Source: Lachnospiraceae bacterium (lineage in GTDB: Bacteria; Bacillota; Clostridia; Lachnospirales; Lachnospiraceae). From it: DNA of 64,000 bases. The translations under genes and the position numbers were made by a program. The notes under the pieces are model-generated. The model did not search any database and had not been told where the DNA came from. It worked only from the letters and a program-made list of their open reading frames with translations. Where the stretch lies: positions 22,425 through 86,424 of the forward strand of contig WRAQ01000007.1 of assembly GCA_009780115.1 (NCBI GenBank). The letters are read 5' to 3'. Below, piece by piece: positions 1-18,562 of this stretch (positions within the stretch are counted from its first letter, which is position 1; each line of letters starts with the position of its first letter).

Positions 1-1
1 T

Positions 2-3000
2 GTCCGTGAAGTTGTGCTTAATGTGGTTGCGCAAGCCTTTTCTGTTGCAAAAAAAATGATTGATGAAAAATATTTGCTTGGCGATTACGGACTTGACCAA
101 TATAAATATTCTTACATCATGGAACAACTGAAAATAAATGGTTATAAAGTGGATTTTAAAGAATATGAACTGGATGGTATGACGATAAAGGAATTTATTC
201 AGGCGGTAAATGATGTGCAAACTTTGGCGGCCAATCATGATGAAAGAATAAGTATTTCTGATATAGCTTATACCTTACAGACCGGCAGGGAAGCTTTCAA
301 GATCCGGATGGCAATCATCGCATCAAATCTGGACAGCTTAGGGCAAAAGCTTGAAAATTGGCTGGAATATGGTAAGGATGTGGACTGTTATACAGCTTAT
401 GGCGAAAAGGTGCTTTGTAATGGAGAGTCGGTTGAAATAAAAGATGTTGATAGTATTACGGAGCTGCTTAAAAAAGGGAAATTGCGGGAGTTGGCTATTA
501 GTTGGCTGCTTCACAAGGAAATTAATTGGCAGCTTATGAAAGGCAATGAAAATGGAGTAAGAGTTTCATTGCCGGGATATGTATTCAGAAAAGAACATTA
601 TTTAATTGACCGTCATTTAATTGATAGTAAAGATAATAAAGCACAGCCAATGTTGGGAGAGAATATATCCGGAATTGATAAATGTGCCTACCGGATTATT
701 TTTACCGGCGCTGAGTTTTTTTTGAATGACCATATCTTGCTGACGAAAAAGGTGATGCCGGGGATGGCTTATCTTGAACTGGCAAGGGCAAATATTGAAC
801 AAGCTACCAGGGAGAAAGTTGTTGAAATTAGAAATGTTTTGTGGAGTAATATATTTTTGCTGGATCAATCCACAAAAGAAATGCAGGTTATTTTAAAAAG
901 GGATGGGAACTATATTTCTTGTGAATTTAATGGCGAAAATAAATTTGCGGAATGTAAGGTTATTACCGCTAAAGATTATCAGGATGAAGCTCATTATAAT
1001 ATTCAAACTATAAAAGAAGGATGTAATAAGAAAATCTTGCCCGATGAATTATATTCCTATTACAAATCAGGCGGTTTAGATTATGGGCCATCCTTTAAAA
1101 TGTTGGATGAAGTTTGGTATAACAATACGGAGGCAATCAGCCATTTGACAGTACCAGAATGCTGCAAAATAGATTTTGATGCTTATGTGTTACACCCATC
1201 CATGTTGGATTCAGCTCTTCAGGCTGGTCTGTGTATCCGGGGGGAGAGCGATACAAAAGATGAAACAACAACACATATACCATATTTTGTAGAAAAGGTA
1301 TCAATATACGGCAAAATGGAAAAAAGCTGTTATAGTTATATTACGCTTTCAAATAATCAGACAAATGATAACCGAAGCCTGAATTGTGTTTTACTATCGG
1401 ATGAAGGCAGGCCTTTGGTAAGGATCCAGGCATTTACAGCAAGAAAAGCAAAACTACATAAGGAGAAGCAAATAGATAAGCACTCAATAGAGAGTGGTTT
1501 GCACTTTTATAAGACAAAATGGAATCTAGTTGGTTCCAATACCGGAACGATTATGAAAGCAAAAAACTATCTGCTAATCCCCCGTCATGCGAACTATTAT
1601 GACGAGCTGGTAAAAATGAAAGAGGATGGCCAATATCCAGACAGAATTTTATTTGATTGCCGCATTACAGAAGAGCAGAAAATGCCTGAAAATAAAATAG
1701 AAGCTGTGATAGAACAAACGGTACTCCGTTTATTTGATTTCTTGCAATTATGGATTTTAATATACGGTGATAATCAGATTGAAATTTTTGTGTTAATTGA
1801 TGGGGGGCGGGATATCCACTCTCTTATTGCAAAATCAGTTTCAGGTTTTACAAATTCGGTTTCCGTGAATATGACCGTACTGGAAAATGCCGGTTGTAAA
1901 GAAGATGAGTTTATCGAAAAGGTCTGTACCTTACTACTTCAAGTTATGACCAGAAAACATTATCGGATTACCCGGGATGAGGTCATGGAATTTGATATAA
2001 TCCCCTGCACTTTGCCCAAAACAGATAAATCTTTGCTTAAAGAAAAAGGGACTTATCTGATAACCGGCGGACTTGGGGCAATTGGAAAAATTATATCACA
2101 GTATCTTGCAAGTCGTTATAAGGCGAATTTGATTTTGCTTGGAAGAAGCGGGTTAAATGAGGAAAAACAAGCATGGCTTAAGGATTTACAGGCTCATTCC
2201 AATTATATAAGGTATTATTCTTGTGATATTTCCTGTCAGCGCGACTTGGAAGAGGTGAAAAAGCAGATAAAAATGGAAGGGTTTATCCCGGAGGGGGCTT
2301 TTCATACGGCTGGAATCAATAGTATCGGTGAATGGCAAGAAAAAACAAAGGAAAATTTCCTTGGCACTTTAAAGCCAAAGATTCATGGAACGATATTCCT
2401 TTGTGAAATATTAACGTATTTTGAAGCAAAGTTTATATTACAGTTTTCTTCTGCTTCTTCCTATACCGGGGATTTTGGCAGAGGGGATTACGCCGTCGCC
2501 AATAGCTTCCTTGATAATTTTTCGCAACAAGGCATCCAAAATTATGTAATCAACTGGCCCATCTGGGAAAGCGGCGGAATGCATACAGGTTCTTTTGCGG
2601 CCGAGAAAAAGATGCTTTCAAAAATGGGATTGGATTACATAAAACCTGCGGATGCATTGGAATGTATCGAAAGTGTATTGGCAAATGATGAATATCAGTT
2701 GATTGTAATGGCAGGTAAACAAGATAAAATCAGCAATATCATTCAAAATTGTGTCACGAAAATGGAACCGGAAACCACAGAAAGATATTTACCCTCAAAG
2801 ACAATATCGCAAAGTGAGAAAGAGGAAAAAGATGATATAAGACGGGAATTAAAGCAACTCATAGGTGATATCCTGGATCTTAGTTTGGAGAGGATTGATG
2901 TAAATGAAAGTCTAGAGGTTTATGGGTTTAATTCTGTCACCATTGCCCAACTATGCGAAAAAATCAACAAGAAGTATGGGACAGATTTCAACCCCACCAT

Positions 3001-4123
3001 TTTTTTTGAATATGAAACAGTAGACCAGATAAGTTGTCATCTTAGGGATGTCCTTTCCCCTCAAAAAGTGAAAGAAGAATTAAATACCGGGCAGGATGTT
3101 ACCAACCCGGTAGTGATGGATAACGAAGCGTTGCTGTACAAATTATCAAGTGTCCGGATAGACAATTTCGATAGCCTGAAAGAATATTTAAAGCATTGCT
3201 CGGAAGAGTATAGGAAAAAAGGAAATAGCTATAAAGAGGTAATAGATGTTCTGGATAAACATAATTATCCGAATAAGTGTGACAAAGAAACCTTATTGCA
3301 CTTGATGGTGCGGCTGCCTAATGGCCAGATGGTGGAAACCATGTTACTTGGACAGGGCAAACCGCTGATAGTCATTCCCGGATTTGGTATCTCCGGGGCC
3401 GCCCTCATTCATCAATTAATGGAGCTGTCCAAGCAGTATCTTGTTGTTGTGATCCATCTTCCCGGGTCAGGTTACAGTGAAGGTATGGAAGATATACTAT
3501 ACCCGCCTAAAATATGCGAGGTAATAAAAGCCACCCTTGAATCTTTGGAAATAAAGTTACCGGTCAGTATTTTGGCATTTTCACTTGGAGGGTTAGTTGC
3601 TCAGGAATTGGTAAAATCCTATCCAGAGATATGTAAGCAATTAATCCTTAGTTGTAGCTTTACAAAGTCGGATTCTGCAGAAACAGCAGAAGAATCTTTA
3701 GAAAAAAAGTTCGAAAAGGATTTTATTAATACCGGTAATTCAGAGAAATTCTATGAATATTATGAAATGAGCAAATGTGTAAACCGTTCTTCCATTAATT
3801 ATTTGGCTGAAGCAAGCCTAAAGAAGTATATAGAAGTAACTAATCTTGAAATAGTTCAGATTCCGGTCCTTGTCATATCCGGAGGAAAAGATTCAGTAGT
3901 GGACAGTTATGAGTCGGAGATTATTGCCGAAAGAATCCCTAATTCTATCCATATTGAATTTTTGAATCATGGACATTGCGTAAATTTAACAAATGCAGCC
4001 ACCTTTAATAAATTGATAACAGAGTTTCTAAAAAATGACGGATATTTAACCAATAATGAAATAAAAAGCTTTGCTAACGGCGAATTAATTATTTGCAAAA
4101 ACTATAAAACGGAGATTGAATAA
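2..4123 (+). CDS. Polyketide synthase, 5'-truncated: DH-KR-ACP-alpha/beta hydrolase
   Basis: The frame is open to the left edge, so the N-terminus, including any ketosynthase, lies outside the window. The first ~75 residues look like a carrier protein with GLDQ where the phosphopantetheine Ser is expected, followed by the AYTLQTGREA linker common in trans-AT PKSs. A dehydratase follows: its catalytic His is near nt 731 (motif H-x3-T-x4-P, with Thr for the usual Gly), YGPSF near nt 1083, and LDSALQA with the second catalytic Asp near nt 1207. A ketoreductase has TGGLGAIG near nt 2060, Ser in QFSSAS and Tyr in DYAVAN near nt 2450-2495. An ACP has GFNS with Ser at nt 2933. The C-terminal alpha/beta hydrolase has AFSLGG (Ser near nt 3581), GGKDS and NHGH, a complete triad that probably releases the chain. 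No AT domain is visible, which fits a trans-AT type. It overlaps the next gene by one base (TAATG). Confidence 0.9.
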   Translation, partial: VREVVLNVVAQAFSVAKKMIDEKYLLGDYGLDQYKYSYIMEQLKINGYKVDFKEYELDGMTIKEFIQAVNDVQTLAANHDERISISDIAYTLQTGREAFKIRMAIIASNLDSLGQKLENWLEYGKDVDCYTAYGEKVLCNGESVEIKDVDSITELLKKGKLRELAISWLLHKEINWQLMKGNENGVRVSLPGYVFRKEHYLIDRHLIDSKDNKAQPMLGENISGIDKCAYRIIFTGAEFFLNDHILLTKKVMPGMAYLELARANIEQATREKVVEIRNVLWSNIFLLDQSTKEMQVILKRDGNYISCEFNGENKFAECKVITAKDYQDEAHYNIQTIKEGCNKKILPDELYSYYKSGGLDYGPSFKMLDEVWYNNTEAISHLTVPECCKIDFDAYVLHPSMLDSALQAGLCIRGESDTKDETTTHIPYFVEKVSIYGKMEKSCYSYITLSNNQTNDNRSLNCVLLSDEGRPLVRIQAFTARKAKLHKEKQIDKHSIESGLHFYKTKWNLVGSNTGTIMKAKNYLLIPRHANYYDELVKMKEDGQYPDRILFDCRITEEQKMPENKIEAVIEQTVLRLFDFLQLWILIYGDNQIEIFVLIDGGRDIHSLIAKSVSGFTNSVSVNMTVLENAGCKEDEFIEKVCTLLLQVMTRKHYRITRDEVMEFDIIPCTLPKTDKSLLKEKGTYLITGGLGAIGKIISQYLASRYKANLILLGRSGLNEEKQAWLKDLQAHSNYIRYYSCDISCQRDLEEVKKQIKMEGFIPEGAFHTAGINSIGEWQEKTKENFLGTLKPKIHGTIFLCEILTYFEAKFILQFSSASSYTGDFGRGDYAVANSFLDNFSQQGIQNYVINWPIWESGGMHTGSFAAEKKMLSKMGLDYIKPADALECIESVLANDEYQLIVMAGKQDKISNIIQNCVTKMEPETTERYLPSKTISQSEKEEKDDIRRELKQLIGDILDLSLERIDVNESLEVYGFNSVTIAQLCEKINKKYGTDFNPTIFFEYETVDQISCHLRDVLSPQKVKEELNTGQDVTNPVVMDNEALLYKLSSVRIDNFDSLKEYLKHCSEEYRKKGNSYKEVIDVLDKHNYPNKCDKETLLHLMVRLPNGQMVETMLLGQGKPLIVIPGFGISGAALIHQLMELSKQYLVVVIHLPGSGYSEGMEDILYPPKICEVIKATLESLEIKLPVSILAFSLGGLVAQELVKSYPEICKQLILSCSFTKSDSAETAEESLEKKFEKDFINTGNSEKFYEYYEMSKCVNRSSINYLAEASLKKYIEVTNLEIVQIPVLVISGGKDSVVDSYESEIIAERIPNSIHIEFLNHGHCVNLTNAATFNKLITEFLKNDGYLTNNEIKSFANGELIICKNYKTEIE

Positions 4124-5067
4124 TGTTTAGTGGAAAGTATGAAAAAGAATATGTAAAAATCAACGATATTGAGGAATTTTTTCTTCATTTTCCATCATTA
4201 CCCGAAAAGGAGGTGGTTCTGTTTATTCATGGCGGTCCGGGCACATCGGAAGCCGTATCAGGACATGATATGTATGAAGCCCATAAGGATAAATTTAACA
4301 TAGTTTATTATGATCAACGGGGTGCTGGAAAGACTTATATGAGGAACCCCGATAAAGAAGCGGACATTAACAACATATTAAAAGACTTAGAAGAAAGTGT
4401 TGAATACATTAAGCAGAAATATAATAAAGAAAAAATAATTATTCTGGGTCATTCATGGGGGACTATTCCCGGTGCCCTATATGTCAAGAAGCATCCGGAA
4501 AATGTCATAGGTTATGTGGGAGTTGCGCAAATAGTTAATATTAACGATAGTGAAAGGGCTCGCGTTACCTATTTAAAGAATCTTATGCAAGAAAAGAGGA
4601 AAAATAAGCAGGTAAAGTTTTTGGATGAACTAATAGAGGCAACAGAGGGCACGCTTTATGAAGAAAGGCTGACGAAGAAGCAGCTTAACCGGTTAAGGAT
4701 GATGCAAATAAGAAATAAGATGCTTGAGGGCGCAAGTTTATCAATGCTTAAGATTATGAAAAATAGTCCGGTTTATGAAAAAACTGACTTGAAAGTAATG
4801 ATGTCATCTAAAAAACGTTCCGCTAAGCTGTGGGATTATATTTATAAATTTGATTTATATAAAGAAATGAAAGAATGGCCGGTGAAAACGTTGTTTATTT
4901 CTGGAAGCAAAGACTTTCAGGTTCCTTATTCTTTATTAACGGAATATTGCCGGCAGAATAAGGATGGCAATATTCAATTAGAGATATATGAAGATGCCGG
5001 GCATTTTTTTATGTTTGACCAAAGCGCAAAATTTTGGGATATGATTTACCAATTTTCTTTAGAATAA
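4123..5067 (+). CDS. Alpha/beta hydrolase, proline iminopeptidase-like (S33)
   Basis: This 314-residue protein has the HGGPG oxyanion motif near residue 37, YDQRGAGKT near 65, nucleophile elbow GHSWGT near 108, an acid in SGSKD near 262 and a catalytic His in EDAGHF near 288. This order is typical of proline iminopeptidase/S33 hydrolases, which cut N-terminal residues from small peptides or amides. The start overlaps the PKS stop by one base, which implies translational coupling. Given the cluster it may trim, hydrolyse or edit the peptide-polyketide product, or act as a discrete type II thioesterase. The family assignment is secure. The substrate is unknown. Confidence 0.88.
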   Translation: MFSGKYEKEYVKINDIEEFFLHFPSLPEKEVVLFIHGGPGTSEAVSGHDMYEAHKDKFNIVYYDQRGAGKTYMRNPDKEADINNILKDLEESVEYIKQKYNKEKIIILGHSWGTIPGALYVKKHPENVIGYVGVAQIVNINDSERARVTYLKNLMQEKRKNKQVKFLDELIEATEGTLYEERLTKKQLNRLRMMQIRNKMLEGASLSMLKIMKNSPVYEKTDLKVMMSSKKRSAKLWDYIYKFDLYKEMKEWPVKTLFISGSKDFQVPYSLLTEYCRQNKDGNIQLEIYEDAGHFFMFDQSAKFWDMIYQFSLE

Positions 5068-5089
5068 ATAAATTTATGGAGATACACTA

Positions 5090-6073
5090 ATGATGAAGTA
5101 TGAAAATATATATGAAAAACCTCAGGACAAGTTTTGGTTTGCCGGAGAGAAAAATTGCATTGAAAAGGCAACTTCTTTCATATTAAAGGCCAGGTACTAT
5201 AATAATCCTAAATTGATGTCAATCTTTTTAGAAGATATAACCCTTGCCTTTGTACATAATGAGAACAAAATAATCAATGCCAATTGTGTAAAAAAGCCAT
5301 TTATATTAAATAGGATTGTTGACACTGGTGATATTCCAGTAAATAGGCTGAAACATAACTTAGATAAATATGGTGAAGTAGTTGCCGTAATATCTACCAA
5401 TAAGATTCCTTACCGAGTGGACTATGATGTTTCAATCTTGGATATTGACAGCGGGAAACATGCAATTGCAGTAATTGGCTATGATCAAAGCTATTTTTAT
5501 GTGCTTGAATGGGCAAAATATATCGGCAATGGATATGACATTTCACCAATGAATCCATCTATCGGGAGAATCAAAATCGTGGATTTTGAAGCTTGCCTTG
5601 AAGAATATTTTGAATGCATGGAATTAGTTTGCGATTTGGGGCAACATGAAGCGATAGATAGCTATGAGAAATCTATAATACAAAAGATAAAACAGAATCA
5701 AAACCGGAAAAATGAAGAAAAAAGTTATGGATTAACAGCTTTAAAAGAATTATACCATTTATTCAGGGAGGGTACCGTAACATATGAACTTTACACTAAT
5801 GAAAATATTATGGAAGTCAGCAATCTGATCAAGGCAAGAGAGGTCATAAAGTATAAATTGATTGGTGCAATAAATAACGAGGGCGAAAAAGAATCAATTG
5901 AAGCAACTATCAATGAAGATAATAAAAACTGGACTAAGTTTATGCGGCTTTTAATGCGGAGGCGCTCAAATGACCCGGCCCGGAGATATGATAACGGGGA
6001 AATTGGCAATTTGCTCAATTCAATATATGAAAAGGAAACTAATATCTATAAAGCGATAGAACAATACTTATAA
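5090..6073 (+). CDS. BtrH-N-like papain-fold protein (small paralogue)
   Basis: This 327-residue protein has no signal peptide. Its N-terminal ~180 residues resemble the BtrH N-terminal family (butirosin acyltransferase BtrH, a papain/C39-like fold): Cys23 at the start of a helix (NCIEKATSF), His124 in KHAIAVIGYD, and the next strand YFYVLEW. There Glu140 stands where the larger paralogue at 16970 has Asp145. In butirosin biosynthesis BtrH moves an acyl chain from an acyl carrier protein to an amino sugar. By analogy this protein may transfer or release a carrier-bound acyl group. The C-terminal ~140 residues are helical, charged and unrecognised. It lies 22 nt after the hydrolase and 28 nt before the NRPS. 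The family call rests on motif pattern only. Confidence 0.7.
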   Translation: MMKYENIYEKPQDKFWFAGEKNCIEKATSFILKARYYNNPKLMSIFLEDITLAFVHNENKIINANCVKKPFILNRIVDTGDIPVNRLKHNLDKYGEVVAVISTNKIPYRVDYDVSILDIDSGKHAIAVIGYDQSYFYVLEWAKYIGNGYDISPMNPSIGRIKIVDFEACLEEYFECMELVCDLGQHEAIDSYEKSIIQKIKQNQNRKNEEKSYGLTALKELYHLFREGTVTYELYTNENIMEVSNLIKAREVIKYKLIGAINNEGEKESIEATINEDNKNWTKFMRLLMRRRSNDPARRYDNGEIGNLLNSIYEKETNIYKAIEQYL

Positions 6074-6101
6074 AAATCTAATTGAGGGACAGAGGTGACA
6101 A

Positions 6102-9100
6102 ATGAATAAAATTACAGAAGAATTTTGTTACGGCGGTAAAATGGAATGGGAAAAAGCCACTTGTCATGAGTTTTTTGAGTTGACGGCCGAAAAGTATCCG
6201 GACAAAATTGCATTACGTATGAAAGACGAGTGTTTTACTTATTCGGAGCTTAATAAGAAAGCCAATCAATTGGCAAGGAATTTACGAAAAAAGGGCGTTG
6301 GGCCGGATGTTTGTGTTGCTATTATGGGCGAGAAAGAGCTTGAAACAATCATTTCAATTTTGGCTATCTGGAAAGCCGGCGGGGCATTTGTTGCAATTGA
6401 TAATAATTTGGGCGAAGAAAGGGTGACATATATTCTCAAGGATTGCAAATCGCTTCTTCTTTTAAAGTGCCGGAAAGAATTAAATTTTTCAACCGATATT
6501 CCAGTCATTTCGATGCTTGATGAAGGATACTATCAAGGTGAGGATGATAACCCGGAAAATGTGGTTGATGGAAGTAATCTGGCATATTTTGTCTACACAT
6601 CCGGTTCGACCGGGACACCCAAAGGTGTTATGCAGCATCATAGGGGAACAGTCCGGTTCCATAATCATTTTTTGATTAATGATATTTCTCCAAACGATAC
6701 TTTACTGCAATTTTCCAGTTTTTCATTTGCCATGTCGGTTTGGGAACTTTCGATTTCTTTTTTTACAGGTGCAACTTTATGCATGATACCAGAATATTAT
6801 GTTTTGGACACAAGGGAGTTTGAAAAGTACATACAAAAATATAAAGTCAATATATTACTTTTACCCCGGCAATATATAGAACAAGTGAAGTGTTATGATG
6901 GAGTTGACAAGATATTCACTGCCGGGTCTGAAATGACCAGTGAAGTTTTTGATTATATACCTAAGGGTGTACAATTCACTCAAATGTATGGTACCAGCGA
7001 AGTTTCCGGGGTGGTGACACAATGGCGGTATAGCGGGGAGGCTGTTGAAAGCAAACTTCCAATCGGGAAACCAATGCCAAATTGTTATGTATACATCGTA
7101 AAAGAGGGAAGATTATGTAGTATTGGGGAAATAGGGGATATATATATTGCGGGGGAATGTATATCCCGGGGTTACGTATCAAAACCTGAATTAACGAAGG
7201 AAGTTTTTATCCCCAATCTTTTTGGGGATGGGATCATGTACGCAACAGGTGACATGGGAAGATGGCTAGCCGACGGGAATATAGTTTTTCATGGCCGTAA
7301 GGATTCTCAAGTTAAGATAAGGGGTTATCGGGTCGAACTTGGCGAAATAGAAGCAGTACTTCGAAGCAAGGAATCCATTCAAGAGGCAGCAGTCGTTTTG
7401 AAAGAAGATAAACAAAAAGAGAAAATCATTTGTGCATATATCACAGCAGATAAAGAAATTGACTTGTCAGTACTAAAAAAGGAATTAAGAAAATCATTGC
7501 CGGAATACATGATTCCGGCTAAGATTATGCAACTTAAGGAAATGCCTCTTACAATTAGCCGGAAACTTGACAAAAACCGCTTACCGGATATTGACCTTGC
7601 AATCCGTTCTAATTATATACCTCCCGAAACAAAACTCCAAAAACAACTAGCTTCTATGTTTGAAAAAATCCTTGGTGTTGAAAATGTTGGGATTAAAGAT
7701 AGTTTCTTTGATTTGGGCGGACATTCTTTGAGTGTTTCAAAGCTTTTGAATGCAATCAATATCAATTGCGGTATTTATTTATCCATAAAGAGCATCTTTG
7801 AACATCCAGTTATCAGTGAATTAAGCGAGGAAGTAGAAAAGTGCAGAAACAAGGTTCAGGAGGATATGTCTGTCCCCAAATCCCATAAAAAAGAAAAATA
7901 TGCTATGTCCCCGGTACAGAAGGGGATTTATTTTGCTTGTCAAATGAATGAAAACACGGCTTATAATATTTTCAGCGGTTATAGGCTGGAAGGGATACTT
8001 GATGTCCGGAAGCTTTACGATGCCCTGGAAGAGTTGACTGTAAGACACGAAATGCTTAGAACCAGTTTTCATATTGAAAATGGTGAGTTAGTTCAATGTG
8101 TCCATGATGAGGCAATCGTAAATTTTGAATTTAAAAAAGACAATCGGGATATAGAAGAACTGATAAGCGAGTTTAATCGGATTTTTCAACTTGAAAAGGC
8201 GCCGCTTATGCGGGTCTGCCTGATAGAGCAAAAAGATTGCCATTTATTGATGATGGAAATACATCATATTATCACGGATAAAACAAGTAATGCGATATTC
8301 TTTAATGAATTATCATGTATTTATAACAATACTCAATTGTCACAAAAGACTCTTGATTATATTGATTATAGTGAATGGATTAATCACCGTAATTTGGAGC
8401 TTCAAAAGAAGTTCTGGCTGGAAAAATTTGCTGAACCTAATTCAGTTATTGAATTACCCCTTGATATGACCCGGCCGCAAATACAGGATTTCGCCGGTGA
8501 TAGTGTAAGTGCTTTTGTCAGCCCCAAACTACGGGGAAAAATTTCCGGGTTGGGAAAAATTACCAATACTACTGATTATATGATTTTTATGTCCGTCTTT
8601 ATGGTTCTTCTTAGTCAGTATAGCGGGCAGGACGATATCGTTGTCGGGACACCGATTTCAGGCAGGGCAACCCATGATTTGGAAGATATGTTTGGCATGT
8701 TTGTTAATTCAATGCCAATGAGAGGGAAACCCGAGAAAGACAAAGACTTTGCTTCTTTCCTGAAAGAAATAATGAATTTCTCATTGATGGCTTATGAGAA
8801 TCAGGAGTATCCCTTTGAGGAATTAGTAAGGCAGTTAAAGGTAAAAAGAGATATCTCAAGAAACCCATTGTTTGATTATATGCTTGTTATGCAGAATACA
8901 CAGGAGCAAAATCTTGAAATGGACTGCCTGAAAATTTCTGCCCTTAAGCAAAATAATTTTACGGCCAAATTTGATTTAACAATTTTTATTTATAATAGAG
9001 AGGGTCAATATGAGATTCAACTGGAGTATTGCAGCAAACTATTTAAACGCTCGACGGCAATGTCAATGCTGGAGCATTATATCCATATTCTGACCTATAT

Positions 9101-12100
9101 TACCGACAATCAAAATATCAGGATAGATGATATTCCTTTGGTGTCAAAAGAGGGACAAGAATTAATCTTAAATGTTTTTAATGCTACGGAATCAGATTAT
9201 GACAAACGTAGTATTTTATCTTTAATAGAAGAGCAAGCAGTTATTAATCCTGAGCAGATAGCATTATATGATAAAGACAGAAGATTAACTTACAATGAGA
9301 TGGATGGAAAAGCAAATCAGCTTGCTTGCTATTTGGCGGAATCCGGGGTTAAAAAGGGTGATATCATTGCAATCATAAGTGAGCGGAGTATAGAATTTGT
9401 AGTTGGAGTTCTGGCAATATTGAAAGCCGGCGGGGTTTTTGTTCCAATTGACCCGGATTATCCGGAAGATAGAATACTGTACATTTTAGGGGATTGTGCC
9501 CCGGCACTTATCTTGTGTAGTGAATCGGCAGCTATTAATTGGAACGTACCCACGATAAGCATGAATGTAATTAAGGAATATGCAGGAATTGAAAAAAATA
9601 ACCAGATAGCCCCCCTTTCGGCGGAGCTTGTATATATGATTTATACGTCAGGGACCACAGGAAAGCCGAAAGGTACCATGATTACCCACGCAGGGCTTTC
9701 TAACTATATAAATTATGGTATAGAGAATTATGTTTCAAAACCACCTGTGGCACCCTTATTTACCAACCTATGCTTTGATTTGACGATGACAACTCTTTTT
9801 CTGCCTTTGTGCTGCGGGGGCAGGATTAAAATTTATAATGCCCCAATTGATGAAATGATTCGGGAAATTTTTGCCGAAGATGAGTTTACGCTAATCAAAT
9901 GCACACCCGCTCATTTGAAATTTGCCGCGAACTGCGAAAAGCGGCTTCTTATGAATCTTGAAACGATGATTATTGGCGGGGAAGAATTGGAGACCATGAC
10001 ATCAGAGCAAGTCTTAGAAAACTTCGGGCATCACATAAAAATTCATAATGAGTATGGCCCTACGGAGGCGACCATAGGATGCTGTGACCACATATATACG
10101 GGCAATGAATTAAATAGGACAGTATCAATCGGTAAGCCAATTAATAATATGCAAATATATATTATGGAAAATGAGAGGTTATGCGGGATAGGAATCCCGG
10201 GGGAGCTATGTATTTCAGGCATAGGGATTGCCAAGGGATACTGGAATAATGAAGAGATGACGGCGGCGAAATTTGTTAGCAACCCCTTTGGCGAGGGTAT
10301 TTTATATCGCACCGGTGACAAAGCAAGATGGCTTGCAGAGCAAACACTGGAATATTTGGGAAGAATAGATGAGCAGATTAAAATACGGGGATTTAGAATC
10401 GAACCTGGTGAAATTAGTAATTGTATCAGAAAACAGGAAGGGATTAAGGATGCTGTTGTTATTACAAGAGAATCTAATGCGGGCGAAAAACAATTGTATG
10501 GATATTATACAGCAGATGAAAATAAGGAAAATGAACAGATAAAAGAGCTTTTGCGCAAAGAACTACCGGAGTACATGATACCGATTTATTTAATGCAAAT
10601 TGACCATATTCCAATAACCCGTAACGGGAAAATAGATAAGAAATTGCTTCCGCTGATTAAAACGGATAGTGCAATGGGAAAAGCGGCTCCAAGAAATGAT
10701 AAAGAAAAGGTTATTTCGGAAATATTTAAGTCCGTATTGGAAATAGAGAATGTTGGCATATATGATAATTTCTTTGAGTTAGGCGGCCATTCTTTGAAAG
10801 CAGCGAAAATGATTCACCTTATTGAGGAAGCTTTTAGGATAAAGTTAATGCTAAGTGAAATTTTTCATTTTCCTAATATATCTAAGTTGGCCGAATATCT
10901 GGGGCAGAAGAATGAAGTCCATGGGACGGGCGGGATTCCAAGAGCGGAAACCCTTCAGTTTTATGAAGCAGCGCCGGTTCAGAAAGGCATTTATCTGATT
11001 GCCGATAATGAAAAAAGTACTGTCTATAATATGCCCTATGGGGTGAAACTTACCGGGAAGCTGGATACAACAAGGCTTAGTGCGGTATTTGAAAAAATAA
11101 TAAACCGTTATGAGATTCTTAGAACCGGTTTCAGGCTTCATGAAGGAAAGATTATTCAGCAGATTTCAGAATTACCGGATTTTGATTTTAAAGTTATACC
11201 GGCGGAAGCGAAAGATTATGATTTGGCTTCCATGGTTGAACCCTTTGACCTGGCAAAAGCGCCTCTCTTGCGTATTCGGGTAATCAAAGGAGAAGAGGAA
11301 AGTATTTTATTTTTGGACATTCACCATCTTGTATGCGATGGTATTTCCCTTTCGGTGATTATTAATGAAATATCTGATTTGTATAATGGGGCGGCGGGGG
11401 AAGAACCCAAGCTGCAATATAAGGATTACAGCCAGTGGATGTATAGCCGGGATATGAGCAGCCAGAGGCAATATTGGCTTAACAAATTTTCAGATGAAAT
11501 TCCGGTTTTGGATTTACCGATAGATTTTTCACGGCCTCAATTTCAAAGCTTCCATGGTTCCCGTATTCTTAAGACTTTGGGCAATGAATTAACTAGTGCT
11601 ATAAAAAAACTAGCCATCGAAAAAGGTGTTACTGAATATATGGTGTTTCTATCTATATATATGATGATGTTAAGTAACTATAGCCGACAGGATAAAGTGG
11701 TTGTCGGTTGCCCTGTTACCGGAAGAACAGACAAAGATATCCACAATATGCCGGGGATGTTTGTGAACTCCGTGGGGTTAATCGGAGAGGTAAATCAGGA
11801 TTCCGGTTATCAGGATTTCCTTAAACAAATTAAAATCAATACCTTAGAAGCATACAGCAATCAGGAATATCCGCTTGAAGTTTTATTGGATGATTTAAAG
11901 ATAAAAAGGGACTATTCCAGAAATCCTTTGTTTCAGGTGATGCTTGTGATGCAGAATCAAGAGCAGGTTAATTTTAAATTAGATGAAATTAAGGCCAATG
12001 AAATTAATATTAAGAGTTTTGTATCTAAATTTGATTTAACGCTTTGTATCAAAGAAGTGGACAATACTTTCCGCATTGAATTTGAATATTGTACGGATTT

Positions 12101-15100
12101 GTTTCGAAAAGAAACGATTGGCTATATGTTAGAGCATTTCATATGCCTGATTGCAGGTGTTACCGATAATCCTAATAAGATACTTAAAGAATATTCCATG
12201 GTTTCTGCAGAAGAACAAAAGAAAATTCTGACAAAGTTCAATCATACTAAGCTGAAGTATGAAGAAAATTTATACATTCATGAAATATTTGAGAAGGTAT
12301 CAGCATTTAGTCCGGATTCGATAGCAGTATGGCATAATGGCAAAAACTTAACATACAGACAATTAAATGAAAAAGCTAATCAACTCGCCTCGTGGCTTAT
12401 GAAAAATGTAGTTGCAGATGGAAACCATGTGGCAATACTTGCAGATAAGTCAATCGAAACGGTTATCAGTATCATTGCGGTCTTAAAATCCGGGGCTGCC
12501 TATGTGCCAATAGATAGGGAAATGCCGGAAAAGAGGCGAAGTTATGTGCTTTCAGACACCAGCCCGGTAATAATTCTTACCAATGAATGTTTTGTTTTAA
12601 AGGGTTGGAATATCCAGGAGGTTTCTCTAAAAGATTGGAAGTTTGGGCAGGAACCGGTAAAAAATACTAATCTGCCATACGACGAAGAACGTTTGGCATA
12701 TATACTTTATACATCTGGTACCACCGGAAATCCCAAAGGGGTGATGGTTAAGCATTCGGGGGTTGTTAATCTGGCACATTTCCAAAGGAAACAATATAAA
12801 ATTACACAACAAGACCGTATTTTGCAATTTGCGAACTTTGTATTTGATGCCTCAGTATGGGAATGCGTAATGGCTTTATTAAATGGGGCTACCCTTTACA
12901 TTCCCAATGAAGAGACTATTTTGGAGCCAAAGAAGCTGGAAAAATTTGCCGAAGAGAATCAGATTACGGTTATGACAATACCGCCCCACTACTTTCTACA
13001 GATGCAAATTTCTGATATAAGGGTACTTATTACGGCGGGGTCAGCCCCGGATCTAAGTGTGCTTGAGCGGGTCCCGGATAGCACATGTTATGTGAATGCG
13101 TATGGACCAACTGAGGTGACAGTATGCGGGACAGACTGGATTTGGGATAAAAGCGAAATAACAAATATAATTCCCATCGGACGGCCAATTGCCAATACGC
13201 AGATTTATATCCTGCGGCATGGAAATCTTTGTGGAATCGGGGTCCCGGGAGAAATCTGTATCAGTGGGGCAGGTGTGACAAAAGGGTACTTAAATCAAAA
13301 AAAACTTACCGCCGAAAAATTTGTAAAAAATCCTTTTGGACAGGGTATGATGTACAAAACAGGAGACGTAGGCCGATGGCTGGATAATGGCAATGTAGAG
13401 TTTTTGGGACGTATGGATGAACAGGTTAAGGTCAGGGGATACCGGATCGAGCTCAAGGAGATAGAAAATGTAATCAGGAAAATCAAAGGGATAAAGGATG
13501 CTGTAGCAATTGTCAGGGAAAATGAAGCTTGTGAAAGTAATATTTATGCTTACTATACTTCTGAGTTTCCTCTGAATGGAAACGAGATAAAAAAAGAGTT
13601 GCGCAAATCCCTTCCGGAATATATGATCCCTTCCTGTATCATATCGGTTGAAAGCATTCCGGTAAACCGCAGCGGAAAAGTGGATAAAACCAAGTTGCCA
13701 GCCGAGGTTATAGTCACTGAACAGGACGATGAGCAGGCAATTACCGAAAATCAAAAGGAGATTGGGGCAATATTTGAATTTGTCCTTGGTATCAATAAGG
13801 CTGGAAAAAAGACAGACTTTTTTGAGTCCGGCGGACATTCCCTGAAAGCTGTTAAGATAATTAACGAGATTGAGAAAAAATATAACATCCGTTTATCTGT
13901 TAAGGATATATTCATTTACCCGACCCCGGAAAGTCTGGCAGCTTATATTGAAGAAAATGCAAAAGATAAATACTATGAAGCGATTCAGGCATGTAAGGAA
14001 AAGGATTTTTATCCTGTCTCCCATATGCAAAAAGGTATTTATATCATATGCAAGATGAAAGATACGATAAGTTATAACATGCCCAAGGCGATATCTTTCA
14101 AAGGAAGATTAAATCTTGAAAAACTGCGAAATGTTTTTTCCATTTTGCTTAAGCGCCATGAAATTCTTAGAACTAGCTTCCATGTTGAGCAAAACGAAGT
14201 GGTTCAAAAAGTGCATCGAAAGGCAGAAGTTGAAATAAGCTATGCGGAAGCAGAAGAATTTACAGAAAGAATGATGAATGAATTTGTCCGTGTTTTTGAC
14301 TTAGGCAAAGCGCCGCTTGTTAGGGCAGGAATTATCAGGCAAAAGGAATATGACGTACTGCTGTTGGATATCCACCATATTATTTCAGATGGTTTAAGTG
14401 CGGATATCCTGACTAGAGAGATATCAGCTTTATACAATGGTGTAATACTTAAGGAGAACACCATCCAATATAAGGATTTTAGCAGTTGGCTGAAAACCCG
14501 GGATACCGGGGCGCATAGAAAGTTTTGGATAGAGGAAGTGGGAGGAGAGGCCAGTGTGCTTAATTTCCCATTGGACAAATCAAGACCCAAATATCAGACT
14601 TTCCAGGGTGACAGAATTGTGATGAATTTTGCCGAGGAGACAAGTAAGCTTATCCGAAGAATGGGGAGAGACTATAGTGTTTCTGATTATATGATTTTTC
14701 TGGCTGGCTATATGATACTTTTATCAAAATATTCGCGGCAGGAGGATGTTATGATTGGCAGCCCTCTGGCAGGCAGATTCCGTAAAGAGACGGAAAACAT
14801 GCTTGGTATGTTTGTCAATACAATGCCTATCCGGGAAAAAATTGAGAAGAATCAAACATTTACCGACTTCTTGCAGAAGATAAAAAATAAAGTCCTTCAA
14901 GTAGTTGAACACGAAGCTTATTCTTTTGAGTCACTCATCAGTCAATTGGGTATCAAGCCGGATCACTCAAGAAATGCCTTGTTTGATATAGTACTTGCTG
15001 TGCAAAACCAAAAAGCGGCCGCGTGGAGGTTGAATGAGGCAGAAACGGTAAAAGTATGGGAAGTAAACACCAATACCTCCAAGTTTGATATTACTTTGAT

Positions 15101-16955
15101 TATAGATAGTTCTAAACCCAAATATGAAATGGAATTAGAATATTGTACCGATTTGTTTTACAAAGAAACAATGGAACGTATGCTTAAGCATTTCATATGT
15201 CTTATGAAAGATATTTCATTAAACCCTAATAAAATCATTGATGAATTTTCTATGGTTGATGAAGATGAAAAATCTGCTTTACTTTGTATGTCGCAAGCTA
15301 CCATGACCGGATATTTTGATTCAGAGCTTATCCATGAGAGATTTGAAAACATAGCCGTACAATTTCCGGAACGGATAGCAATAATACATAATGAAAGGCA
15401 AATAACTTACCGGGAATTGAATGAAAAAGCAAATCAGACAGCACATTATCTGCGTATAAAAGGGGTAGGGCGAAATAGCTTAGTTGCTGTATTAGGGGAG
15501 AAAAAGATTGAAACCATGATTTTAATTTTAGGTATTCTAAAAGCAGGAGGAGCTTATGTACCAATTGACCCTGAATATCCGGCTGAACGAATCGAATATA
15601 TCTTAGAAGATTGCCAGCCGGTATTATTTTTGAAAGATGTTCCGCTTTCTGAAAAAAATAAAACAAATCCCAAACACATTAATGAGGCAGATGATTTGGC
15701 TTATATTATTTATACGTCAGGGACGACTGGGAAACCAAAGGGGGTCATGCTAGAACACAAAGGGCTTATAAATCTGTATTATCATTGCCAAATTGCGTAT
15801 GGTTTAAGTGAAGAAGAGGTTGTTTTGCAATTTGCCAACCTGACATTCGATGCTTCGGTATGGGAAATTGCAATGGCATTTTTAAGTGGGGGGACCTTAT
15901 GTATAGTGGATAAGGAAATTATTACGGATGTCAGAAAATTTGAACGTTATGTATATGCTAATGGGGTGACTTTACTACTTTTACCCCCTCAATATTATCT
16001 TCAGGTGGAACTATCAGGCATAAAGAGAATTATTACCGGAGGTTCCCCGGCCGACAAAACTGTGCTTGATCATGTGCCGGACAATATAGTTTATTCAAAC
16101 GCATATGGGCCGACAGAGATTACTGTATTCTGTACTGATTGGGAAGCCCGGCCCGGAGAAATTGTCGAGAAAGTACCGATTGGCAGGCCGATAAGTAATA
16201 CGAGCATCTATATCATGGATAATAATCAGATTTGCGGTATTGGCGTACCGGGTGAGTTATGCGTGGGGGGCCCCGGAGTGGCCAGGGGTTATTTGAATCA
16301 ATCAGGTCTGACTAAGGAGCGGTTTGTAACGAATCTACAAGGCGAGTCAAGAATCTATCGCACAGGTGATTTGGCAAGATGGACAGAAAACGGGACGATT
16401 GAATATCTTGGCCGGATGGATAACCAAGTCAAAATACGGGGCCACCGGGTTGAGTTAGGGGAAATTGAGAGTGTTATCCGGACTGTGGCAGGGGTTAAGG
16501 ATGCAATTGTAATTGTAAGAAAATCAGGCGATACGGATGAGCAGTTATATGCGTATTTTACATCTGACATAGTTATCAATATGGATGAGATTAAACAAGT
16601 TTTACATAGAAAACTCCCGGAATATATGATTCCTAAGCTCATGATGAAACTTGAAGAGATACCGGTCGGGCAAAGCGGAAAACCTCAACACCACAAATTG
16701 CCGGATATCAAAATGGTCAGTGAAAAAGAATATATGATACCAAACGGAGAAAAAGAGCAAGCGGTAGCAAATGTATATATGCAAGTTTTGAAACTTGACA
16801 AGGTTGGTAGGAATGACAGCTTTTTTGACCTTGGGGGCAATTCAATGAAAGCTATTATCGTAATTAACCATCTTAATAAAAAAGGATATAAAATCAGCTC
16901 CCAGGATATTATGAGGTATCCGGTTGTAGAAAAACTGGCCGCCCGGTTAAAGTAA
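6102..16955 (+). CDS. Four-module NRPS, A-T-C-A-T-C-A-T-C-A-T, no thioesterase
   Basis: This 3617-residue synthetase begins directly with an adenylation domain. A-domain core motifs lie near residues 165 (YTSGSTG), 1181, 2203 and 3204 (YTSGTTG). Carrier serines are S542, S1564, S2580 (all GGHSL) and S3581 (GGNSM). Condensation motifs are HHIITDK at 721, HHLVCDG at 1741 and HHIISDG at 2758; the first lacks the usual Gly after Asp. Reading the ten specificity positions against PheA by eye gives A1 A-M-W-L-F-A-M-G-V-K (no Asp235), A2 D-L-T-K-I-G-E-I-G-K (Asn-like), A3 D-A-W-T-I-A-A-V-C-K (Phe-like) and A4 D-A-W-L-I-G-A-V-F-K (hydrophobic, unassigned). There are no epimerase, reductase or TE domains. 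The protein ends right after the fourth carrier, so release must occur in trans. The start has an AGAGGTGAC Shine-Dalgarno. Confidence 0.95.
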   Translation: MNKITEEFCYGGKMEWEKATCHEFFELTAEKYPDKIALRMKDECFTYSELNKKANQLARNLRKKGVGPDVCVAIMGEKELETIISILAIWKAGGAFVAIDNNLGEERVTYILKDCKSLLLLKCRKELNFSTDIPVISMLDEGYYQGEDDNPENVVDGSNLAYFVYTSGSTGTPKGVMQHHRGTVRFHNHFLINDISPNDTLLQFSSFSFAMSVWELSISFFTGATLCMIPEYYVLDTREFEKYIQKYKVNILLLPRQYIEQVKCYDGVDKIFTAGSEMTSEVFDYIPKGVQFTQMYGTSEVSGVVTQWRYSGEAVESKLPIGKPMPNCYVYIVKEGRLCSIGEIGDIYIAGECISRGYVSKPELTKEVFIPNLFGDGIMYATGDMGRWLADGNIVFHGRKDSQVKIRGYRVELGEIEAVLRSKESIQEAAVVLKEDKQKEKIICAYITADKEIDLSVLKKELRKSLPEYMIPAKIMQLKEMPLTISRKLDKNRLPDIDLAIRSNYIPPETKLQKQLASMFEKILGVENVGIKDSFFDLGGHSLSVSKLLNAININCGIYLSIKSIFEHPVISELSEEVEKCRNKVQEDMSVPKSHKKEKYAMSPVQKGIYFACQMNENTAYNIFSGYRLEGILDVRKLYDALEELTVRHEMLRTSFHIENGELVQCVHDEAIVNFEFKKDNRDIEELISEFNRIFQLEKAPLMRVCLIEQKDCHLLMMEIHHIITDKTSNAIFFNELSCIYNNTQLSQKTLDYIDYSEWINHRNLELQKKFWLEKFAEPNSVIELPLDMTRPQIQDFAGDSVSAFVSPKLRGKISGLGKITNTTDYMIFMSVFMVLLSQYSGQDDIVVGTPISGRATHDLEDMFGMFVNSMPMRGKPEKDKDFASFLKEIMNFSLMAYENQEYPFEELVRQLKVKRDISRNPLFDYMLVMQNTQEQNLEMDCLKISALKQNNFTAKFDLTIFIYNREGQYEIQLEYCSKLFKRSTAMSMLEHYIHILTYITDNQNIRIDDIPLVSKEGQELILNVFNATESDYDKRSILSLIEEQAVINPEQIALYDKDRRLTYNEMDGKANQLACYLAESGVKKGDIIAIISERSIEFVVGVLAILKAGGVFVPIDPDYPEDRILYILGDCAPALILCSESAAINWNVPTISMNVIKEYAGIEKNNQIAPLSAELVYMIYTSGTTGKPKGTMITHAGLSNYINYGIENYVSKPPVAPLFTNLCFDLTMTTLFLPLCCGGRIKIYNAPIDEMIREIFAEDEFTLIKCTPAHLKFAANCEKRLLMNLETMIIGGEELETMTSEQVLENFGHHIKIHNEYGPTEATIGCCDHIYTGNELNRTVSIGKPINNMQIYIMENERLCGIGIPGELCISGIGIAKGYWNNEEMTAAKFVSNPFGEGILYRTGDKARWLAEQTLEYLGRIDEQIKIRGFRIEPGEISNCIRKQEGIKDAVVITRESNAGEKQLYGYYTADENKENEQIKELLRKELPEYMIPIYLMQIDHIPITRNGKIDKKLLPLIKTDSAMGKAAPRNDKEKVISEIFKSVLEIENVGIYDNFFELGGHSLKAAKMIHLIEEAFRIKLMLSEIFHFPNISKLAEYLGQKNEVHGTGGIPRAETLQFYEAAPVQKGIYLIADNEKSTVYNMPYGVKLTGKLDTTRLSAVFEKIINRYEILRTGFRLHEGKIIQQISELPDFDFKVIPAEAKDYDLASMVEPFDLAKAPLLRIRVIKGEEESILFLDIHHLVCDGISLSVIINEISDLYNGAAGEEPKLQYKDYSQWMYSRDMSSQRQYWLNKFSDEIPVLDLPIDFSRPQFQSFHGSRILKTLGNELTSAIKKLAIEKGVTEYMVFLSIYMMMLSNYSRQDKVVVGCPVTGRTDKDIHNMPGMFVNSVGLIGEVNQDSGYQDFLKQIKINTLEAYSNQEYPLEVLLDDLKIKRDYSRNPLFQVMLVMQNQEQVNFKLDEIKANEINIKSFVSKFDLTLCIKEVDNTFRIEFEYCTDLFRKETIGYMLEHFICLIAGVTDNPNKILKEYSMVSAEEQKKILTKFNHTKLKYEENLYIHEIFEKVSAFSPDSIAVWHNGKNLTYRQLNEKANQLASWLMKNVVADGNHVAILADKSIETVISIIAVLKSGAAYVPIDREMPEKRRSYVLSDTSPVIILTNECFVLKGWNIQEVSLKDWKFGQEPVKNTNLPYDEERLAYILYTSGTTGNPKGVMVKHSGVVNLAHFQRKQYKITQQDRILQFANFVFDASVWECVMALLNGATLYIPNEETILEPKKLEKFAEENQITVMTIPPHYFLQMQISDIRVLITAGSAPDLSVLERVPDSTCYVNAYGPTEVTVCGTDWIWDKSEITNIIPIGRPIANTQIYILRHGNLCGIGVPGEICISGAGVTKGYLNQKKLTAEKFVKNPFGQGMMYKTGDVGRWLDNGNVEFLGRMDEQVKVRGYRIELKEIENVIRKIKGIKDAVAIVRENEACESNIYAYYTSEFPLNGNEIKKELRKSLPEYMIPSCIISVESIPVNRSGKVDKTKLPAEVIVTEQDDEQAITENQKEIGAIFEFVLGINKAGKKTDFFESGGHSLKAVKIINEIEKKYNIRLSVKDIFIYPTPESLAAYIEENAKDKYYEAIQACKEKDFYPVSHMQKGIYIICKMKDTISYNMPKAISFKGRLNLEKLRNVFSILLKRHEILRTSFHVEQNEVVQKVHRKAEVEISYAEAEEFTERMMNEFVRVFDLGKAPLVRAGIIRQKEYDVLLLDIHHIISDGLSADILTREISALYNGVILKENTIQYKDFSSWLKTRDTGAHRKFWIEEVGGEASVLNFPLDKSRPKYQTFQGDRIVMNFAEETSKLIRRMGRDYSVSDYMIFLAGYMILLSKYSRQEDVMIGSPLAGRFRKETENMLGMFVNTMPIREKIEKNQTFTDFLQKIKNKVLQVVEHEAYSFESLISQLGIKPDHSRNALFDIVLAVQNQKAAAWRLNEAETVKVWEVNTNTSKFDITLIIDSSKPKYEMELEYCTDLFYKETMERMLKHFICLMKDISLNPNKIIDEFSMVDEDEKSALLCMSQATMTGYFDSELIHERFENIAVQFPERIAIIHNERQITYRELNEKANQTAHYLRIKGVGRNSLVAVLGEKKIETMILILGILKAGGAYVPIDPEYPAERIEYILEDCQPVLFLKDVPLSEKNKTNPKHINEADDLAYIIYTSGTTGKPKGVMLEHKGLINLYYHCQIAYGLSEEEVVLQFANLTFDASVWEIAMAFLSGGTLCIVDKEIITDVRKFERYVYANGVTLLLLPPQYYLQVELSGIKRIITGGSPADKTVLDHVPDNIVYSNAYGPTEITVFCTDWEARPGEIVEKVPIGRPISNTSIYIMDNNQICGIGVPGELCVGGPGVARGYLNQSGLTKERFVTNLQGESRIYRTGDLARWTENGTIEYLGRMDNQVKIRGHRVELGEIESVIRTVAGVKDAIVIVRKSGDTDEQLYAYFTSDIVINMDEIKQVLHRKLPEYMIPKLMMKLEEIPVGQSGKPQHHKLPDIKMVSEKEYMIPNGEKEQAVANVYMQVLKLDKVGRNDSFFDLGGNSMKAIIVINHLNKKGYKISSQDIMRYPVVEKLAARLK

Positions 16956-16969
16956 AGGAAGATATTTAT

Positions 16970-18562
16970 ATGATGAAGCTAGAAATGAATCTAATAAAAA
17001 TGCCCCGGTTGAGAAAAGGCAAGTTTTCCATATTCTTTTGTGTGGACGATGCTATTGCTACAATAGCGGCTTATTATCAAAGAAGCTATGAATATATGTA
17101 CCGTGATGCCCTTTATTATCGTTATGACAAAAAAAATGAATATATCGGAAAGAGTATATATGTCCCCTACTTATTTCAAAAGCAGTTGCGGGAATGCTGC
17201 GGAATTACTATGGAATTTCAAAATCATACGGAGCATCCCTATGACTTGGTGAAAAAGGAATTGGATGCTAAAAATCCCGTTTTTATGGCTATTAATGCTT
17301 ATTACTGTCCATGGGACTGGCGCTATGGGGAAATTGAGGACGGGGGACATGCAATTATACTAAATGGATATGATGAGCAGAATCAATCCCTATTATGTAT
17401 TGACCCTTATTATGATCAGATTGATTTGGTATTGCCGCTGCATCTTTTTAGTAAAGGAATTATGCAGATTGCCACTTTCCGCAAAGAAAACTATGATAAA
17501 AATATAGACAACGAATCCTTTTTGCAGGAAAGCCTACAAAATATGGTGGATAAGCCTTTTTATTCTGATGCCGAAAAGCTGGCAGCAGATATTGGACAGA
17601 ATTTTTTATTTGAATACGAAATTTCAAATTATGATCCTCTTGAAGAAATAAGCGGAGAAGAAATGTCAAAGCGGGTTGCTTTAGAAGCAGCCTTTACCGC
17701 TTTGTCCAATAATCGGCAACGTTATGCAGTTATGCTTAAGTTAATTGGGGAAAAATCACCCGGGCTTAAGGATATGACTATTGGTGCCATAGATAGGCTG
17801 ATTGCTTTTGCCGAACAGTGGGATATGCTAAGATATATGATAATGAAAGGCATCATGTTAAAAAAAGCTTCTGTCATAACGGAATACGCCCCTGAAAAAA
17901 TAAAGATAATTGCCTTGTCGGAAAAAGAGTACTTTGAAGAATTAGTGGAAAATAAAGAGAAGGGTTTATGGAGAATGGCATCAGACAGGACATGTGATGA
18001 ACAGCTTACAATATCAGAAATATTTCATTATGAGCTTAATCAATTCTGTAACAATGAGGGAATTGGAGATTTTGAAAATACTTCTGCCAACTTAAATGAT
18101 AAGGGCGACTATTTCCTGCTTGATGACTTTTCCGAGAAAATGAGTTTCCTGGATATGAGTTTTCAAGTATCAGGACTGCATAATGGGAAAGCAGATAATG
18201 TGATTTGTCAGGGTCAAAAGTTAAAAGTTCTGCCTGACTATTATATAGCTTGCGTGATATTAGGCTGTTCCGACTTTGGGCAATGCATAGATAGGGTAAG
18301 GTTTGTCTACGAGGATGGAAAGGAAGAGGAGTGTCGAATAGAAATGCCGGAATGGCAGCCGGAGCTGCAATATGGGGAACCGGAAGGAACGGCCTTTGTC
18401 TTAAGGTCAGTGGAATGTTATGAAGGCAGCAAATCAATCAATAGTGACGGGAAAAGGTTATATGTGAGGAAACTTAAACTTAACCAAGAAAAAAGGCTTA
18501 TATCCTTAATGCTTCCGCAAACGCCCTGTTTGCATATATTTAGCTTGTTTTTGGCGAAATAG
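16970..18562 (+). CDS. BtrH-N-like papain-fold protein (large paralogue), possible chain-release enzyme
   Basis: This 530-residue cytosolic protein lies 14 nt after the NRPS. The N-terminal ~165 residues carry a papain/C39-like layout: Cys24 (FFCVDDAIA), His127 in GGHAIILNGYDE and Asp145 in LLCIDPYY. This matches the BtrH N-terminal family of carrier-dependent acyltransferases. The middle (about 200-330) is helical. The C-terminal ~150 residues look like a beta-sandwich (FVYEDGKEEECRIEMPEW and similar strands), comparable to ligand- or carbohydrate-binding modules. The NRPS lacks a terminal domain, so the inferred job is to release or transfer the chain from the last carrier. The alternative is a cluster-associated peptidase. 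Family confidence is moderate and the role is inference. Confidence 0.7.
   Translation: MMKLEMNLIKMPRLRKGKFSIFFCVDDAIATIAAYYQRSYEYMYRDALYYRYDKKNEYIGKSIYVPYLFQKQLRECCGITMEFQNHTEHPYDLVKKELDAKNPVFMAINAYYCPWDWRYGEIEDGGHAIILNGYDEQNQSLLCIDPYYDQIDLVLPLHLFSKGIMQIATFRKENYDKNIDNESFLQESLQNMVDKPFYSDAEKLAADIGQNFLFEYEISNYDPLEEISGEEMSKRVALEAAFTALSNNRQRYAVMLKLIGEKSPGLKDMTIGAIDRLIAFAEQWDMLRYMIMKGIMLKKASVITEYAPEKIKIIALSEKEYFEELVENKEKGLWRMASDRTCDEQLTISEIFHYELNQFCNNEGIGDFENTSANLNDKGDYFLLDDFSEKMSFLDMSFQVSGLHNGKADNVICQGQKLKVLPDYYIACVILGCSDFGQCIDRVRFVYEDGKEEECRIEMPEWQPELQYGEPEGTAFVLRSVECYEGSKSINSDGKRLYVRKLKLNQEKRLISLMLPQTPCLHIFSLFLAK

Follow-up and report, generated by a model that had tools for sequence, protein, structure and literature searches.

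How does a nonribosomal peptide synthetase (NRPS) that stops at a carrier domain let go of its peptide? The question is raised by a stretch of 64,000 nucleotides from a Lachnospiraceae bacterium (the window; contig C7, positions 22425-86424, within a 3.08 Mb draft genome). An NRPS gene (6102-16955, + strand) lies there between two genes whose products carry papain-type catalytic residues, a small protein of 327 amino acids (5090-6073, +; C23/H124/E140) and a large one of 530 (16970-18562, +; C24/H127/D145). By analogy with the amide synthetase CcbD, the large protein may release the NRPS tetrapeptide through Cys24 and an amine, a reading that is given a probability of about 0.5. Carrier-ending NRPS genes are readily dismissed as incomplete. 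If papain-fold aminolysis is a regular ending, amide and conjugate products would become predictable and searchable.

The NRPS is a 3617-residue protein with the domain order A-T-C-A-T-C-A-T-C-A-T (A, adenylation; T, carrier; C, condensation). It begins with an A domain and has no starter C. Pfam identifies AMP-binding and PP-binding domains four times each and Condensation three times. No thioesterase (TE) or reductase family is among the Pfam matches of this protein (P0004) up to E 1, a G[HYFWAS]SxG motif is absent, and the protein stops 36 residues past the carrier motif. A conventional NRPS has a TE or reductase domain after the last module; this one has neither. The original prediction had described a four-module NRPS ending at a carrier without a TE, flanked by two related BtrH-like proteins; the NRPS architecture was confirmed and the catalytic residues proposed for both flanking proteins are exact to the position.

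The large protein is predicted to have a papain fold plus a helical domain, as in CtaG, CcbD and AziU3. The predicted structure matches the three-dimensional fold of CtaG (Z 19.0) and CcbD (Z 18.8), both within about one Z unit of AziU3/AziU2 at best; BtrH itself had no listed chain in this comparison, and its absence carries no evidential weight. C24, H127 and D145 are invariant across six aligned rows, and in 63 aligned rows the corresponding columns hold Cys in 56, His in 60, and Asp in 38 or Glu in 17. Residues 357-528 (18038-18553, +) form an AziU2-like domain, matched by profile hmmsearch to the PDB chains AziU2/Azi28 (E 2e-13) and by Foldseek to 7wuw_A (E 6.5e-8). The protein is AziU3-like plus AziU2-like in one chain, more than the plain BtrH relative that had been predicted; in the azinomycin pathway AziU3 and AziU2 are two chains. 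With BtrH of butirosin biosynthesis it shares the triad layout and the carrier-protein context. However, it scores 25.6 bits against the BtrH_N model PF14399, under the Pfam gathering cut-off of 29.7, and the small protein has no match. Against PF13529 (Peptidase_C39_2; cut-off 24 bits) the large protein scores 33.4 bits and the small one 14.9. PHROGs and NCBIfam gave nothing useful for either protein. In a Ktedonobacteraceae metagenome-assembled genome, a 679-residue protein (L022:7892-9931) that lacks the papain-like part is matched at its end by a portion of the large protein's C-terminal half.

The characterised members of this group act on carrier-bound acyl groups. BtrH is a papain-fold member with such an activity (PMC10318531), and BtrH-type transacylases are suggested to act on fatty acids bound to acyl carrier protein (ACP) (PMC2922099). 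CcbD and LmbD use a ping-pong mechanism with Cys-His-Glu to link a carrier-bound amino acid through an amide to an amino sugar (PMC12945683), and CtaG is the proposed catalyst that moves a hydroxybenzoyl group from its carrier to tri-beta-alanine held on a second one (PMC6772006).

A comparable mechanism can be proposed from the missing TE and reductase of the NRPS, the conserved Cys-His-acid triad, and genes 14-28 bp apart on one strand. The large protein would take the tetrapeptide from the last NRPS carrier onto Cys24 as a thioester, as CcbD takes its acyl partner proline, and aminolysis by a free amine, on the polyketide or on a small molecule, would then release it. The AziU2-like domain at the end of the protein may help to keep the substrate in place. 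The comparison has limits: CcbD and LmbD couple a single amino acid to an amino sugar, whereas here the substrate would be a peptide from a multi-module NRPS. Their identity to the large protein is 10-11% over residues 6-332 only, and the match to CtaG covers only residues 6-329, so that the AziU2-like part lies outside both. More weakly, the small protein may perform a second transfer, most likely at the opposite end of the line. It could, for example, load the first NRPS module with an acyl or polyketide chain, much as CtaG is proposed to transfer from carrier to carrier. Since the NRPS has no starter C domain, its start is the natural place for such a step.

Papain-like domains are also found fused to megasynthases, in the position of a TE. 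A 2196-residue protein at locus L055 has the order KS-ACP-C-A-T-papain-like (KS, ketosynthase), and a 1668-residue protein at L049 has KS-KR-ACP-papain-like (KR, ketoreductase); Pfam finds no TE in either up to E 0.01. When the C-terminal region of the L055 protein was searched against a protein collection, 11 megasynthases of 1460-2513 residues were found, the L055 protein included. Because the search is confined to proteins of 0.55-1.75 times the query length, free-standing relatives are excluded by design. In 11/11 the papain-like domain comes after the final carrier domain and reaches to within 0-4 residues of the C-terminus. An alignment of 14 such domains, 12 of them terminal and 2 stand-alone, shows Cys and His in every one and Glu in 13, the remaining one having Asp. 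By hhalign, homology between the terminal-domain and large-protein profiles extends over 293 columns (96.9%, E 1.3e-10). The fused domains occupy the same place as terminal TE and reductase domains, after the last carrier, but have papain-type Cys-His-acid residues and another fold. A BtrH-like domain is also seen at the opposite end, the N-terminus, of an NRPS protein at L056 (L056:9684-14336), where it precedes T-C-A-T (BtrH_N 23.8 bits, below the cut-off). As a mirror image of the terminal fusions, it may act in loading.

The small protein is a more divergent case. It was compared with a profile built from 27 divergent stand-alone BtrH-like proteins (290-380 amino acids) of the genome survey described below, and scored 27.3 bits over residues 10-323 (E 6e-7 for 5000 sequences, bias term 24.3). 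This score was reached by 0/189 scored unrelated open reading frames (ORFs) and by 0/500 same-composition shuffles. Against a profile of all 62 members it scored 25.2 bits, with 0/187 unrelated ORFs and 0/500 shuffles as controls. The hidden Markov model (HMM) alignment placed C23, H124 and E140 on the Cys, His and acid columns, whereas plain mafft addition to the family alignment kept C23 in register and moved H124 and E140 off the catalytic columns. A strict Cys...His...G[YFW][DNE]...acid layout with the same spacing occurs in 0/202 unrelated ORFs of 280-400 amino acids and in 11/20000 shuffles of the small protein; it is found in only 30 of the 62 family members.

Other searches with the small protein were negative. 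Pfam has nothing over cut-off (best PF13529, 14.9 bits, cut-off 24), and scores were at chance against the canonical (-0.3 bits) and large-protein (1.7 bits) profiles. With the single sequence, hhalign gave 1.5% for the large family and 4.0% for the terminal-domain family, neither significant. A homologue search in 5.8 billion proteins returned one match, the protein itself. Among 295 genomes of the order, weak local matches appeared in nine besides its own (E 0.007-0.09); one of these, inspected by eye, was an unrelated membrane-anchored C39-like protein and was rejected. The single-sequence model (predicted local distance difference test, pLDDT, 41.2) had no confident fold. Because the small protein stands out with the divergent-member and 62-member profiles but scores no better than chance with the other three (terminal-domain, canonical and large-protein), it is, by sequence, a remote member of the BtrH/CcbD/CtaG papain-fold group. 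For this broad group, a full-length profile match and a triad in register were both found. Both window proteins belong to the family, and their resemblance to it is not fortuitous; the kinship between the two is remote.

The association with NRPS genes was surveyed in the family of the window. PF14399 was sought in 397 genomes and gave 57 matches in 35 of them. The match in the window itself and another interrupted by an internal stop were set aside. The remaining 55 were read in 51 stretches of up to 20 kb, 16 of which are shorter than 19 kb, mostly from contig ends. A gene matching the A-domain profile is present in 22/51 stretches, and in 14/51 it lies within 200 bp of the BtrH-like gene or is fused to it. 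The background, estimated from 255 PF00501 matches in 60 family genomes, is about 3% of 20-kb stretches by chance; NRPS-rich genomes (up to 26 PF00501 matches in one) lift this value, though it stays short of 43%. The strongest BtrH_N matches, 12 in number (>65 bits), are nearly at background, with an A gene in 1/12 against 21/39 of the others. In 5/51 stretches two family members enclose an A gene (L013, L036, L043, L044 and L050; L043 only loosely). At L050 a relative of the large protein (540 amino acids, E 3e-62) and a small member (338 amino acids) flank an A-T gene. A C-A-T-C gene and an A-T gene have a small member between them at both L046 and L047. The L050 stretch also has genes that by eye resemble an ATP-binding cassette (ABC) transporter.

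The reading of both proteins as off-line acyltransferases is thus better supported than the bare motif would allow: the activities known from the group, the adjoining A-domain and NRPS genes, and the homologous domains fused behind last carriers all point to it. A number of results weigh against release by the large protein in particular. First, the terminal domains are remote from it: the large-family profile gives the L049 protein E 3e-9, and the L055 protein is not among the 46 matches listed for that profile. The TE-position domains are nearer by sequence to the small stand-alone proteins at L035 and L068, and the window's small protein is not close to these either; it scores 4.3 bits against the terminal-domain profile, a value reached by 1/170 unrelated ORFs and 10/487 shuffles. 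The 11 megasynthases are uninformative on how frequent fusion is, since the search was limited by length. Second, the structural model has a mean pLDDT of 70.7, with residues 331-413 below 50. Third, the gene context varies. No A gene is present in 29/51 survey stretches. Around a full-length relative in R. papyrosolvens, the 10 kb flanks contain no NRPS gene; an AMP-ligase is found some 8 kb away on the left, and phage-like genes are on the right. In P. selenitireducens a free carrier protein and a phosphopantetheinyl transferase, both named by eye, are near the relative and a C-domain gene follows about 9 kb on, a setting that agrees with the reading although the genes do not adjoin. For the L. 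phytofermentans A-T protein, the carrier domain scores 19.8 bits, just under a Pfam cut-off of 20.8. Finally, there are other routes to release. At L044 one gene is type II thioesterase-like (by eye), the L046 stretch holds an ORF matching the profile of the window's free hydrolase, and in the window itself the upstream polyketide synthase (PKS) has a TE-like domain and is followed by that hydrolase. The original prediction would have been refuted by a TE or reductase gene further left in the operon that explains release, and these two features go part of the way towards that.

The PKS is the basis of the strongest alternative, in which the NRPS tetrapeptide enters a trans-AT PKS (AT, acyltransferase), the TE-like domain of the PKS releases the product, and the papain-like pair serves in tailoring or side-chain acyl transfer. 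The adjoining upstream PKS ORF terminates in an ACP and an alpha/beta hydrolase with an AFSLG motif, and a free hydrolase follows; the cluster is therefore not without a TE-like function, and its PKS could be supplied by the NRPS. As the contig begins inside the first PKS gene, an NRPS-accepting first KS is possible, and hybrid PKS/NRPS lines frequently depart from gene order. However, family members lie beside A-T genes at L013, L036, L044 and L050, where the KS profile finds no PKS, and elsewhere papain-like domains are fused in the TE position. This alternative is considered unlikely. A second alternative is that the large protein binds a carrier-tethered substrate and catalyses ring closure or elimination rather than acyl transfer. 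AziU3/AziU2, its best structural match, is aziridine-forming, and this closeness leaves room for ring-forming chemistry. Nevertheless CtaG and CcbD match almost as well, the large protein has an intact triad and an NRPS neighbour, and its Cys24, His127 and Asp145 are invariant in six relatives, as expected of a nucleophilic papain-type triad. The AziU3 stretch around its His aligns only weakly with the terminal-domain profile (E 0.14). Ring formation is considered quite improbable. Least probable of all is hydrolysis of the tetrapeptide from the last carrier by the free hydrolase as an off-line TE: its GHSWG motif is intact and it belongs to the operon, but it fits the Abhydrolase_1 and proline iminopeptidase models best, the listed matches include no Thioesterase family, and its gene lies beside the PKS end, away from the NRPS end.

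Beyond release by the large protein, a broader proposal can be put forward tentatively. Papain-fold Cys-His-Asp/Glu proteins, fused or free, might form a third class of terminators beside TE and reductase, here paired at the two NRPS ends for an acylating start and an aminolytic release, with the AziU2-type domain of the large partner linking the class to aziridine-forming enzymes. The new elements are the joining of AziU3-like and AziU2-like parts in one chain, the bracket that recurs at other loci and, most of all, the papain-like domains at megasynthase ends, which are a variant of the known carrier-dependent amide synthetases. Searches of the open-licence literature gave no description of a papain-like or BtrH-like NRPS terminal domain, subscription papers being mostly outside reach. 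The fused T-papain proteins offer small constructs open to direct testing, and an AziU3-AziU2-like fusion with an intact triad suggests an evolutionary path between amide-forming and ring-forming enzymes.

The two papain-like genes and the NRPS belong to a row of five consecutive + strand genes, in the order PKS, alpha/beta hydrolase, small protein, NRPS and large protein. They are separated by a one-base overlap or by gaps of 14-28 bp, 28 bp between the small-protein and NRPS genes and 14 bp between the NRPS and large-protein genes. The gene after the large protein, which ends at 18562, is on the opposite strand. Scans for promoters (60 against 53.9 expected) and terminators (17 against 13.7) were close to chance.

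The window begins within a giant PKS gene without AT, whose 3' end (1-4123, +; by Pfam) encodes DH-KR-ACP (DH, dehydratase) and then the TE-like alpha/beta-hydrolase domain (3359-4033, +; residues 1116-1340 of P0001). The latter scores 64 bits against PF00561 (Abhydrolase_1) and 13.4 bits, below cut-off, against PF00975 (Thioesterase). The ORF starts about 15 kb left of the window and has about 6370 codons counted from the first ATG (C7:7444), with a KS immediately left of the window. A second PKS ORF, farther left, is the one truncated by the contig start. The free-standing hydrolase (4123-5067, +) is proline-iminopeptidase-like and is possibly a type II TE or an esterase. Genome-wide there are two AT matches, both on contig C34 and not on the cluster contig; C34 carries a tandem AT protein. 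Large PKS pieces are found on contigs C34, C46, C59 and C69 and may belong to the same cluster. With the additional pieces on C46, C59 and C69, the cluster cannot be followed continuously on its left side.

The A-domain codes of the NRPS, taken by position against the third A domain at the PheA positions, are AMWLFAMGV (A1), DLTCIGEIG (A2, its fourth position varying with the alignment), DAWTIAAVC (A3) and DAWLIGAVF (A4). A3 is Phe-like and A2 Asn-like, with no specificity claimed. The first A domain (window 6720-7016) has no Asp at the first code position, where Asp is the usual expectation for alpha-amino acid substrates, and may use a substrate of another kind.

A second locus of the same genome, L015 (C6:24000-43900), has in a row a NusG-like regulator, a free ACP, an A-domain gene, a radical S-adenosylmethionine protein, three BtrH-like proteins (449, 310 and 320 amino acids) and a peptidase-type ABC transporter, named by eye except for the A gene and the BtrH-like proteins. 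Its membership in the window pathway was considered and dropped, as it lies on another contig and resembles a self-contained radical-SAM/ABC system. The G+C content is 0.36-0.38 in the cluster (window 1-16000) and 0.40-0.43 to its right (20000-60000); the lower value of the cluster would fit acquisition from elsewhere.
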